The notes under the pieces are model-generated. The model did not search any database, had not been told where the DNA came from, and was given only the letters and a program-made list of their open reading frames with translations. A stretch of 64,000 bases of DNA from Clostridium sp. 'deep sea' (GTDB taxonomy: Bacteria; Bacillota; UBA994; PWPR01): assembly GCF_014931565.1 (NCBI RefSeq), contig NZ_CP063353.1, positions 1,984,001 through 2,048,000 on the forward strand, given 5' to 3'. This document shows, piece after piece, positions 53,189 through 57,747 of the stretch; position 1 is the stretch's first letter; each line of letters opens with the position of its first letter. Both the position numbers and the translations under genes were made by a program.

Positions 53189-55093
53189 TTATCTAATTAA
53201 TTTTCTTACATTACCTTCACGTTTTGTTATTCTACTTTGATCAAATGTTTCCAATAATGGTAAGGCATATTTTCTACTAGTATTTAGTAAATTTCTATAT
53301 GTTGCTAAGTCTATACTATCATGTTCTTCAAAATATGCAACTAATATTTTAAGAGCTTTTTCATAATTTGTTTGTAACAAGTAGATGTTTTCAGTCAGTT
53401 TTATGGCTTGATTATTCCTTAACATGTTATTAAGTATTTCTTTAAGTTCATCTACTTTTACAGCCAGTTCTTCCGACATTTCATTAACTCCAAGTGGTGC
53501 AAATTGACCCTCTTGTAGTTTTTTTATAACGTTTTCATACCACCTTAAATATTTACCTGTGTACTCTACTTTAAAATTATTAAGTTTAACAAAATCTCCT
53601 GTGTCGTATATTTCTCCAGTCTCCGACAAAAGTATTATTAGCTGTTGGTATAGTTTAGCACTAGCTTTAGTTAAAAAACGTGACCTTATCTCGGCTCTAG
53701 CTGCTCCCTCTCTTAGTGGGTATTTTTTATGATAAGTGCTTAAAAATTTTATTATTTCTGCCCTTACACTATCTAATTTAGTACTTAATACTAGGTAATT
53801 AATTGAGTCAATAGATATTGGTATAATTTCCTCTGCTTCTATGAGTTCATTTATAGCCTCAGCTGCATCTCTCAAACCAGTGTTTCTTATAGCAGCCTCT
53901 CTCTCAAAAATAAGTTGATTTTCTTTTTTCAAGCTATTAATTATAATATCTGCTGATTGACCAGTTGCCTTAAGATTAAGGTCGTCTAAAACTCCTGACC
54001 TAAACCTCCGCTTTTTAGTTGGATTGGCATCTATTATATATCCCCCACCAATAGTCTCTAGGGGAGAGTATGATCTTATTACAAAGCGATCATCTCGCAT
54101 GGTTACTAGAGTCTGCTCTAATCTTATTTGCACAGGCAATTCTTCTCCTGGCCACATTTCATCTCTTTCAAAAAGTACTACTCTACCCAATACCTCTGAC
54201 GTTCCAGTGTAAAATCTTACTCTATCCCAGTGCTTTAAAGGTCTACTATTATCAGGTAAAAGCTTTAACATTACATCTAACATCATAGTGGCTCTTAGCA
54301 GCTTTTGAGGAGCTAAAACCTGTCCGCGTTGACACTCTTCAACTGTAACATCAGCTAAATTTAGGGCTACTCGCTGACCAGCAAAGGCCTCTTCGGCTTT
54401 TTTACCATGTATTTGAATATTTCTAATACGAGTTTTTTTGGATAATGGTTGTAGCTCTGCAGAGTCTCCTACTTTAATTGAGCCCTCCATTAAAGTTCCG
54501 GTAACAACTGTGCCAAAACCCTTTATTGGAAATGATCTATCTATGGGCATTCTAAAATCACACTCAGTGTCTCTGGCAATAGACTGCTCGGTTAGGATAT
54601 CTATTTGCTTTACAAGTTCATCTAAGCCTAGTGACTGTGGTGCAGACACCTGAACGATAGGTGATTCTGCTAAAAATGTATCTTTAAGCTGTTCTCTAAT
54701 TTCTTCAATAACAAGCTCACGCCACTCTTCATCTACCATATCGATTTTTGTTAAAGCAACCATACCACTTTTTATGTTTAAGAGGCTTAGGATATTTAAA
54801 TGCTCTTTTGTTTGGGGCATAATACCTTCATCAGCTGCTACTACTAACAGAACTACATCAAAACCAATAGCTCCTGCTAACATGTTTTTTATAAATTTTT
54901 CATGACCAGGAACATCTACTATTCCTGCTCGTTTTCCACTCGGTAAATCAAACCAAGCAAAGCCAATATCAATGGTTAAGCCTCTCTGTTTTTCCTCTTT
55001 TAAACGGTCTGGGTCAATACCTGTTAAAGATCTAATTAGAGTTGACTTACCATGGTCAACATGACCTGCTGTACCAACAATAACATGTTTCAA
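53189..55093 (-). CDS. selB: Selenocysteine-specific elongation factor SelB
   Basis: This 634-residue protein has the G1 loop GHVDHGKST, G3 DVPGHE and G4 TKID in an EF-Tu-like GTPase. Domains 2 and 3 follow, then a C-terminal region of winged-helix modules (about 375-634) that binds the SECIS hairpin in mRNA. It brings Sec-tRNA to UGA codons. Start ATG 2 bases after the selA stop. Its presence together with selA shows the organism makes selenoproteins. Confidence 0.97.
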   Translation of the reverse strand: MKHVIVGTAGHVDHGKSTLIRSLTGIDPDRLKEEKQRGLTIDIGFAWFDLPSGKRAGIVDVPGHEKFIKNMLAGAIGFDVVLLVVAADEGIMPQTKEHLNILSLLNIKSGMVALTKIDMVDEEWRELVIEEIREQLKDTFLAESPIVQVSAPQSLGLDELVKQIDILTEQSIARDTECDFRMPIDRSFPIKGFGTVVTGTLMEGSIKVGDSAELQPLSKKTRIRNIQIHGKKAEEAFAGQRVALNLADVTVEECQRGQVLAPQKLLRATMMLDVMLKLLPDNSRPLKHWDRVRFYTGTSEVLGRVVLFERDEMWPGEELPVQIRLEQTLVTMRDDRFVIRSYSPLETIGGGYIIDANPTKKRRFRSGVLDDLNLKATGQSADIIINSLKKENQLIFEREAAIRNTGLRDAAEAINELIEAEEIIPISIDSINYLVLSTKLDSVRAEIIKFLSTYHKKYPLREGAARAEIRSRFLTKASAKLYQQLIILLSETGEIYDTGDFVKLNNFKVEYTGKYLRWYENVIKKLQEGQFAPLGVNEMSEELAVKVDELKEILNNMLRNNQAIKLTENIYLLQTNYEKALKILVAYFEEHDSIDLATYRNLLNTSRKYALPLLETFDQSRITKREGNVRKLIR

Positions 55094-55095
55094 GT

Positions 55096-56487
55096 TTACC
55101 CCTCCATTAGTCCCTGTTTTAGAACTTCAATTAAATCAGCTTCTTCATCTGTTGCAATGGTTCTTAAATCTACTAATAAACCGTCATTTTCAATACGAGC
55201 TATTAAAGGAGTTGATCCTAACCTCAATCGTTCTTCATATTTATTTACACTCATGCGGCGTGGTGTTACAACAATACCAGCAGACGGTAACTCTTCTAGT
55301 GGCAATGCTCCGCCACCAACCTGACCAACTGTATCACATACCTGTACAAAGGCATAATCAGCTACCTCAGCTAAAATTTTATCTTTAAGCTGATTAGCTC
55401 TTTCTTTTAGCTCATTTTGATTATAATTTAACATTGTAAGAGTTGGTATTTTATTTATTGCTACTTCTTCGTCTAAATATAATTTTAGGGTTGCCTCTAA
55501 AGCAGCTAAAGTAAGCTTGTCTATTCTTAATGCTCGATTTAAGTGGTTTTCTTTCATTGCTTTTATATACCTAGATTTACCCACTATAATACCAGCTTGA
55601 GGTCCTCCTAAGAGTTTATCACCACTAAAGGTAACTACATCTACTCCAGCCCTAACTACCTCTGGTACAGTTGGCTCATAACTTAAGTTAATTTTACGTG
55701 GATCTATAAACATGCCACTACCTAAGTCATCTAATACAGGTATATCATATTTTTTAGAGAGTTTAACTAACTCGGTATTGGGCACTTCTTCAGTGAATCC
55801 TAGTATTCGATAGTTACTTGTATGCACCTTTAATATTAAGGCAGTATTTTCAGTAATAGCTCTCTCATAATCTACTAAATGGGTTTTGTTGGTAGTACCA
55901 ACTTCGTGTAAAAAACAACCACTCTGTTCCATAACAGCTGGGATTCTAAAAGAACCTCCAATTTCAATTAATTGACCTCTTGATACAATTGCTTCTTTTC
56001 CTTTAGCCATGGTGTTTAAGGCTAATAATACTGCTGCTGCATTGTTATTAACTACTAAGGCATCTTCTGCACCAGTTATTTCTTTTAGAAGCGTAACTAC
56101 ATGATCATACCTAGATCCTCTACTGCGCTTTTCCAAGCTATACTCTAGTGTTGAGTATGATGAAGCAACCTGCTCAACCTGTTGCCTTGCACTATTCGAG
56201 AGTTTGGCTCTCCCCAGGTTAGTATGTAGCACTATACCTGTACCATTTAAAACCCTACGTAGTGAATTAACCTGCTGTCTTTTTACTAAGTTTAAAAAAG
56301 TACTTATTACTGTTAATTCAACATCTTCAACTTGTTTGCCATTAAGAATATCTGTTCTTACTTGTCCTATGGCAACTCTAACAGAATCAACAACTATTTT
56401 ATGACTCAACTCATTTACCCACTGAGCAATATCTGTATTCTGTAAAAGCTCATCAACCTTGGGTAATTGACGTAGTAATTTCTGCAT
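55096..56487 (-). CDS. selA: L-seryl-tRNA(Sec) selenium transferase
   Basis: This 463-residue PLP enzyme converts Ser-tRNA(Sec) to Sec-tRNA(Sec) using selenophosphate. The PLP lysine lies in FSGDKLLGGPQAG, and the N-terminal RRVLNGTGIVLHTNLGRA block is typical. Start ATG with GGAGG. Adjacent to selB; the tRNA-Sec gene and selD were not seen in this window. Confidence 0.97.
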   Translation of the reverse strand: MQKLLRQLPKVDELLQNTDIAQWVNELSHKIVVDSVRVAIGQVRTDILNGKQVEDVELTVISTFLNLVKRQQVNSLRRVLNGTGIVLHTNLGRAKLSNSARQQVEQVASSYSTLEYSLEKRSRGSRYDHVVTLLKEITGAEDALVVNNNAAAVLLALNTMAKGKEAIVSRGQLIEIGGSFRIPAVMEQSGCFLHEVGTTNKTHLVDYERAITENTALILKVHTSNYRILGFTEEVPNTELVKLSKKYDIPVLDDLGSGMFIDPRKINLSYEPTVPEVVRAGVDVVTFSGDKLLGGPQAGIIVGKSRYIKAMKENHLNRALRIDKLTLAALEATLKLYLDEEVAINKIPTLTMLNYNQNELKERANQLKDKILAEVADYAFVQVCDTVGQVGGGALPLEELPSAGIVVTPRRMSVNKYEERLRLGSTPLIARIENDGLLVDLRTIATDEEADLIEVLKQGLMEG

Positions 56488-56589
56488 TCATCCAATCCTC
56501 CATGATTATAAATAAAAGTCGACTTTTGCTAATCTATATAATAGTTTAGTCTTTAAGCCTACTCTTAAATCACTGTGTAGCTAAAATCC

Positions 56590-56757
56590 TTATAAAACAT
56601 CACTAATTTTAAGGAGATCGCACATTCTACAGTAATTTTTATTAGTATTTAAATCAACTCGCACATATGAAACTGAAGCCACAGCTTTTAATGCATTTCT
56701 TTCTGCATTTTGGCAATATATTCAACTCATACCTGCCACATTTAATACTTTTATCAC
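56590..56757 (-). CDS. HMA-domain selenoprotein with a broken or shortened C-terminus
   Basis: A GTG at 56757 with AGGAGG 11 bases upstream opens a frame with TGA at codon 12 (56722-56724). Reading it as selenocysteine gives MIKVLNVAGMSUIYC at the start, matching the heavy-metal-associated pattern GMSCxHC with U in place of the first Cys. QNAERNALKAVASVSYVRVD then follows the HMA fold. The zero frame ends at 55 residues. After DLNTNK the +1 frame reads ITVEC and ends KDFSYTVI, as in HMA domains, so the A-run at 56636-56640 probably carries one extra base; even then about four residues are missing. It would bind a soft metal or act in redox. It has its own promoter, upstream of selA. Confidence 0.72.
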
Positions 56758-56775
56758 AGTAAAAATCACCTCCTA

Positions 56776-56791
56776 TATTAGTTAACTAATA
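56776..56791. promoter_or_regulatory. Perfect palindrome at the start site of the HMA selenoprotein gene
   Basis: TATTAGTTAACTAATA is its own reverse complement and lies between the -10 box and the ribosome site, where a repressor would block transcription. Confidence 0.5.
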
Positions 56792-56819
56792 TTATACTTT
56801 TGTTTATTTTATAAATCAA
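56791..56819 (-). promoter_or_regulatory. Promoter of the HMA selenoprotein gene
   Basis: Minus strand TTGATT (-35) and a perfect TATAAT (-10) are separated by 17 bases. The start codon lies about 34 bases downstream of the -10. Confidence 0.75.
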
Positions 56820-56891: not shown

Positions 56892-57747
56892 ATGAAGGCC
56901 TTAGTTTTAGGTGGCGGCGGTGCTCGAGGTGCTGCCCATATAGGAGTTTTACAGGCTCTAAGTGAAAATAATTATGAATTTAATATTGTTACTGGAACAA
57001 GTGCAGGCTCTTTGGTGGGTGGTTTTTATGCTGCAGGTTTTACACCTACTGAGATTGCTAAAATATCTAGTGAAATAAACTGGGAGATATTTAATATAAG
57101 ATGGTTTTCTTTATTAATAAATATTCTTAAAAGTGTGTTGTTTATAAAGCATGAGCCATATATTACAACTGATAGTTTAATTAATACAAAAAAATTTGAA
57201 AGAATTTTAAAAAAACATTTAGGAAACACTGATTTTAATAAGCTAAAATATGATTTTGTAACTCCCTGCAGTAGACCTCCATACTGGTGAGGTAGTTACC
57301 TTTTGCAAAGAGGGCTCTTTGAGTCGTGAAACCCCTTTATTAACAGACAAAAAACTATGGCAAGCTATGCGATCTTCAATGGCTTTACCGGTAGCTTTTT
57401 CGCCCATGGAATTTGCTCCTTGGCTTTTAACAGATGGAGGAGTAAAAGAAAATTTACCTGTAGACTTAGCAGCAGAACTTGGTGCCACAAGTGCTTTAGT
57501 GGTAGATGTCAGCCCTCCTATGCCTCCCCTAAAACACGATAATTTTATGCATATTGGTTTAAGGGCGCTAGATATTATTGGGCAAGAAAGCAATGATTGG
57601 ACTACAAAAATAAAGGTGGACATTATTCAACCTAATGTAGCAAAAATTAATACTCTGGACTTTAATAAGTTAGATGAAGCAATTGCAGCTGGTTATAAGG
57701 CTGGTTATGATTATTTAAAGCAGCATGATATGAGCAAAAAAGGCTGA
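56892..57747 (+). pseudogene. Patatin-like phospholipase, frameshifted
   Basis: The first frame (ATG at 56892, AGGTG in front) has the patatin oxyanion motif [10 protein letters not shown] and nucleophile GTSAGS. It runs to about codon 124 (57263), then hits a stop at 57290. The rest of the protein, [21 protein letters not shown] and the catalytic DGG, continues in the next frame from 57268 to the stop at 57747. One base too many, or two too few, near 57264-57268 explains this. Intact, it would be about 285 residues and act as a serine lipid acyl hydrolase (RssA-like). It is convergent with the PucR gene, with no bases between the two stops. Confidence 0.88.

Follow-up and report, generated by a model that had tools for sequence, protein, structure and literature searches.

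A CopZ-like HMA frame with an in-frame TGA upstream of selAB, probably a decayed relic of a selenocysteine-containing family found across its class

The window, a stretch of 64,000 nucleotides from Clostridium sp. 'deep sea', carries upstream of selA and selB a CopZ-like HMA frame in which TGA occupies the codon of the first metal-binding Cys, and on balance we read this copy as the decayed, frameshifted relic of a Sec-HMA gene, coding for a CopZ-like metallochaperone. Intact HMA frames of 68–69 aa with TGA at the same codon were found in 10 of the 12 genomes of the class outside the window's family (f1), and it is very likely that this class truly has HMA proteins with selenocysteine. As it stands in the single assembly from which its frameshifts are known, the window copy can no longer encode a whole HMA protein. 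From the sequence, we infer the decoding of the TGA as selenocysteine, the metal and the function.

Two genomes of the same family serve as the nearest references, G001, the only other genome of the window's genus that was compared, and G002, from a second genus. The frame and its surroundings comprise the following features:

56590–56757, minus strand: CopZ-like HMA frame as it stands, with GTG start at 56757, TGA at 56724–56722 and TAA stop at 56592–56590; 55 codons against about 66
56722–56724, minus strand: TGA at the first metal-binding Cys codon of GMSCxxC; TGC in G001 and G002, TGA in ten other class genomes
56767–56774, minus strand: RBS, AGGAGGTG; relatives have GGAGG-type sites
56791–56819, minus strand: sigma-70-like promoter, TTGATT-17-TATAAT; TATAAT stands at the equivalent place in G001
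55096–56487, minus strand: selA (L-seryl-tRNA(Sec) selenium transferase), 463 aa, intact, directly downstream of the HMA frame
53189–55093, minus strand: selB (Sec-specific elongation factor), intact, next after selA

Read from 56757 on the minus strand, the frame begins VIKVLNVAGMSU-IYCQNAERNALKAVASVSYVRVDLNTNK, with an RBS upstream and a single TGA as codon 12, and its GM[ST]CxxC metal loop takes the form GMSU-IYC, with TGA (Sec) in place of the first metal-binding Cys. An earlier note had drawn the frame over 56565–56757 directly upstream of selA; its start, its TGA at codon 12 and its place on the same strand before selA and then selB were confirmed, but the HMA frame is not open over that whole span and ends at the TAA. 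The promoter that the note had assigned to the gene is present as a TTGATT-17-TATAAT site but is only promoter-like, and by itself it is weak evidence, since the scan found four such sites and shuffled sequence would be expected to give 2.9. A second promoter-like site (56532–56505) lies between the HMA frame and selA.

With C substituted for U, the frame matches CopZ models (NF047957, E 4e-9). Its score against PF00403 (HMA) was 15.7 bits as a single frame and 22.1 bits when read through the insertion described below, both under the gathering cut-off of 24.8, which is exceeded by the Sec relative G004 (70.8 bits) and the Cys relative G001 (56.8 bits). None of the sequences scored with NF033795 (CopZ) reached the curated cut-off of 91 bits, the values being 35.1 for the window, 71.6 for G001 and 89.2 for G006. 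A random frame, which the earlier note had named as an outcome that would undo its reading, was ruled out by the CopZ profile matches together with the syntenic orthologues, including an intact Cys orthologue within the genus.

In G001, an intact 66-aa HMA gene with the loop GMSCMHC (L006; MKKILNVTGMSCMHCQNAVVKALKAVNGVDEVFVDLNTGKVTVECQPSVKSRQLVDAIAEAGYTVI) lies between selA and the same divergent patatin gene that neighbors the window frame, and G002 has the order gltX-HMA(GMSCMHC)-selA-selB (L008). From these positions, the frame in the window corresponds by synteny to a Cys CopZ-like gene. The interval between the HMA stop and selA in G001 contains a terminator-like hairpin with a T-run (L006 1473–1498, minus strand); a terminator scan found none in the window.

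The intact relatives with TGA were identified by a DNA-level search for GM[ST]U-xx[HYND][CU] that covered 398 genomes of the phylum. Of the 12 genomes of the class that lie outside the family, eight had a match, and none of these matched the reversed control pattern. Each of the eight matches is a full-length HMA gene, about 69 codons long, with an RBS, a start 12 codons before the TGA and the TGA as the sole internal stop. When all 15 class genomes were searched with a profile, G009 and G012 (GMTU-GSC) joined them, giving the ten genomes; the metal loop in the class is mostly GM[ST]U-GHC. Downstream of the TGA, pN/pS lay at 0.15–0.50 in 36 of 36 pairs among the nine copies of the class that were compared, which indicates that purifying selection acts on translation beyond the TGA in these genes. 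The stand-alone Sec-HMA loci are as follows:

L127–L133, L148, L149, L168, L169, L089, L116 and L117: stand-alone Sec-HMA genes

Most of these genes share one neighborhood. The order csoR-HMA(U)-trxB-selA occurs in G003, G004, G005, G009, G011, G012, G013 and G014, preceded by fur and followed by selB in every case where the fetched stretch extended that far, and in G004 profiles confirmed the identities of CsoR, Fur and TrxB. In G007, fur and csoR precede HMA(U) and the contig ends right after the HMA gene, before trxB. The fur-csoR-HMA(U)-trxB-selA-selB context was thus found in nine of the ten Sec-HMA class genomes, one of them on this contig that ends before trxB. In genus g6, fur-csoR-trxB-selA lacks the HMA gene, and the Sec-HMA of G006 lies elsewhere (L089). 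The adjacency to selA, which the earlier note had wished to see checked in related genomes, is found in G001 and G002; in the class cluster trxB stands in between. Among ten loci from a SelA search across GTDB contigs, no HMA beside selA was found other than that of G001. Outside the class, most pattern matches proved on translation to be chance frames, and the only true HMA genes were those of G155 (GMTU-MHC) and G120 (GMTU-NHC), two genomes of another family in which the gene stands directly behind a heavy-metal P-type ATPase gene (by profile in G155). The total of intact homologues with TGA at this codon was 12, ten from class genomes and two from that other family. Homologues with U or C at codon 12, for which the earlier note had proposed a search, exist in both forms, Cys in G001 and G002 and TGA in the ten class genomes; Sec at the first Cys of an HMA loop is well supported for the family of genes, but the window copy itself is broken.

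In the intact relatives, SelB would read UGA as Sec with the help of a hairpin about 17–18 nt downstream, yielding an HMA protein of 68–69 aa. This Sec-HMA would probably bind Cu(I) or another soft metal via a selenolate/thiolate pair and would be controlled by the metal-sensing repressor CsoR, encoded next door. The ancestor of the window copy would likewise have had selenocysteine at its first metal ligand.

The window copy departs from its relatives in the part that follows the metal loop, where two features were recorded:

56636–56640, minus strand: A-run one base longer than in G001, which moves the HMA reading into the +1 frame
56565–56639, minus strand: decayed C-terminal half in the +1 frame, KITVECAISLKLVMFYKDFSYTVI and a stop; compared with G001, 9 nt are deleted and a pair of 1-nt gaps lies nearby

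The frame shifts after about 39 codons, about 28 codons past the TGA, and reaches a stop at codon 56, the HMA-like reading after the insertion (KITVEC...YTVI, then a stop) running on in the +1 frame down to 56565. Even when read through the insertion, three codons of helix 2 are missing. The C-terminal part scored −1.2 and −1.3 bits in the two frames against the family profile, on which intact members reach 25–36 bits, the profile being built partly from these same members. Conserved coding after the TGA is thus found in the class relatives and is absent from the window copy, with its frameshift and C-terminal decay. A programmed frameshift at the A-run was ruled out, the C-terminal part being scrambled in the +1 frame too. 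In the tree, the window HMA has a branch of 1.06 changes per column and its sister G001 one of 0.087; with the N-terminal 37 columns alone the values are 0.70 and 0. Window-unique and G001-unique changes in the HMA N-terminus stand at 6:1 (p 0.125), an asymmetry not shared by selA (25:20) or selB (47:38). Conserved residues have also been lost from the N-terminal half, namely V to E after CQNA, G to S before V, and H to Y in the metal loop.

A second gene is broken next to the HMA frame:

56893–57747, plus strand: divergent patatin-like gene, frameshifted near 57263–57268, both halves still conserved

The two halves gave a pN of about 0.25 with saturated pS against G001, and because both are still so strongly conserved, the patatin break either happened recently or is a sequencing error. 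Indel errors throughout the genome were ruled out, since among about 25 genes compared with G001 and G002 only the HMA gene and the adjacent patatin gene are broken; about 23 are whole, and the assembly is therefore not error-ridden. The same comparison bears on the idea that the window still encodes a working Sec-HMA chaperone, in which the extra base would be an assembly or base-calling error and the C-terminus merely divergent. Nothing is amiss in the promoter, the RBS, the start or the N-terminal 39 codons, and the patatin frameshift splits its gene in the way an error would, but the C-terminal score is no better through the insertion, helix 2 lacks its codons and the other genes are unbroken, and we regard a working chaperone as unlikely.

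The region after the TGA contains a hairpin that resembles a SECIS element:

56690–56709, minus strand: SECIS-like hairpin AAUGCA-GAAAGAAA-UGCAUU, its loop beginning 18 nt after the TGA

The stem has 6 bp and the loop starts with G. An equally stable hairpin at 16–20 nt, with G among the first two loop bases, follows 0.7% of the 1942 TGAs of the window, or 2.6% when the distance is widened to 14–32 nt, and dinucleotide shuffles gave p 0.035. In the intact Sec-HMAs the loop begins 17–18 nt after the TGA, as in GCGAGC-AGUU-GCUCGC (G006) and CAGCGC-AGUAACGAAA-GCGCUG (G155); the hairpins are not exceptional in f2 genera, stem and loop lengths vary between genera, and the GU in the apical loop of most relatives is absent from the window hairpin. 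As evidence for the window TGA, after which the earlier note had asked for SECIS folding to be checked, the hairpin is supportive, not decisive, because 2–4 of 52 Cys-HMA controls (about 4–6%) have an equally or more stable hairpin at the same place. Such hairpins in the controls are probably due to Ala codons at both ends of this stretch that tend to pair.

Since the nearest orthologues, G001 and G002, are Cys genes, the TGA could have arisen by nonsense mutation from Cys, and the window copy could then be an ordinary pseudogene of a Cys CopZ in a lineage that never used Sec here, the TGA being one chance nonsense change among other damage. The TGC codons of both orthologues, the frameshift, the loss of family-conserved residues from the N-terminal half as well, and the 6:1 relative-rate count all fit such a pseudogene. 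However, among the single-base routes to a stop codon in the G001 gene, only one of 14 in the first 39 codons, and one of 26 in the whole gene, gives TGA at codon 12, which is exactly the codon at which the class relatives have TGA, and the SECIS-like hairpin follows it. Because of this one route in 14 and the hairpin, an inherited Sec codon is favored, and the window TGA was probably inherited as Sec rather than gained as a fresh nonsense change; we hold the Cys pseudogene to be possible, if doubtful. Parsimony requires two changes under either ancestry, and the f1 HMAs are not firmly joined to the class Sec-HMAs in the tree, the link between them being one of synteny only.

A regulatory role for what is left of the frame was also weighed. 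The truncated Sec-ORF might act as a leader, its UGA and hairpin, 5' of selA and on one transcript with it, sensing the supply of Sec-tRNA and SelB and adjusting selAB. Autoregulation of SelB is known in E. coli and is mentioned in PMC8124441. The promoter, HMA frame, selA and selB are all on one strand, and all detected indels fall in the last third of the HMA frame, leaving the UGA-hairpin part free of them. However, the N-terminal part also evolves fast, the indels are few and their uneven placing may be chance, and the second promoter-like site separates the HMA frame from selA, and a leader of this kind is in our view quite unlikely. That the truncated ORF would have been kept as a selenium-sensing leader of selAB, its UGA and hairpin preserved and the second half of the chaperone discarded, is very unlikely. 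If true, what was once a selenoprotein gene would now regulate the genes for making selenocysteine.

The genome around the window frame has the whole selenocysteine machinery. The window itself supplies selA and selB, and the genome further has selC (75.9 bits), selD, which contains a TGA of its own (G000:C1:2714069; L027), and grdA with TGA (G000:C1:2719805; L046). Because selD and grdA carry in-frame TGA codons, the genome very likely uses selenocysteine elsewhere. It also contains another intact copA-copZ pair with Cys, and the selA-linked copy may therefore be dispensable. CopA-type ATPases of G001 (C67; L162 1525, L170) and G002 (C193; L157 1534, L171) have TGA at the first Cys of the second HMA domain, with the loops GMTU-AAC and GMTU-ASC, respectively, while the window's genome has Cys there. 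The hairpins 26 nt past these TGAs, UAGAAAG-GGUU-CUUUCUA in G001 and CGAAAG-AGUU-CUUUCG in G002, include a compensatory change.

The proposal of a new selenoprotein type in the earlier note did not stand, as HMA-domain selenoproteins are already catalogued as a kind (NCBIfam NF041115 and NF045683; review tables). Selenoprotein tables list ATPase E1-E2 (cation ATPase) with UxxC and a 'putative mercuric reductase' with UxxU, and the '(2Fe-2S) CopZ family' selenoproteins in the same tables have a different domain, cd10141 (PMC13188914, PMC9312934). No entry for a stand-alone CopZ-type UxxC protein or for a csoR/trxB/selAB cluster was found in NCBIfam and the open-access literature, and G006, the one class Sec-HMA scored against NCBIfam, fell below the cut-offs of NF041115 and NF045683. 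What appears to be new here is a class-wide set of stand-alone CopZ-type Sec proteins in a csoR-trxB-selAB cluster, absence from open-access lists not being proof. A class-wide CopZ-type selenoprotein would make the role of a selenolate ligand in the handling of copper and other soft metals testable. Within one lineage, the use of Sec would recur in HMA domains, both in the chaperone and in CopA, and close relatives would differ by Sec/Cys switches and by loss. For annotation, the window copy cautions that even a dead gene can carry TGA at a Sec-type codon.

Among the known systems, the MerT/CopZ fusion-like selenoprotein NF045683 also has a CopZ-like domain in a selenoprotein, but there the domain is fused to MerT, and no fusion exists here (13 bits against a cut-off of 375). 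The cation ATPase shares the UxxC motif in an HMA-bearing metal-transport ATPase, of which G001 and G002 also have examples, whereas its HMA is a domain of a P-type ATPase and the protein described here is a free chaperone. NF041115, the UxxU metal-binding (seleno)protein that reviews list as the 'putative mercuric reductase', is likewise a stand-alone HMA with Sec in the metal loop, but both of its Cys are replaced by Sec, while here only the first is; with UxxC rather than UxxU, and scores of 22.3 bits for the window and 57.4 for G006 against a cut-off of 95, neither is a member. While the class relatives differ from the CopZ copper chaperone (NF033795, NF047957, PF00403) in having Sec (TGA) for the first Cys, and the window copy in being truncated and below every cut-off, they resemble it in length, in the GM[ST]CxxC loop, in profile match and, among the relatives, in the adjoining gene for a CsoR-type metal-sensing repressor.
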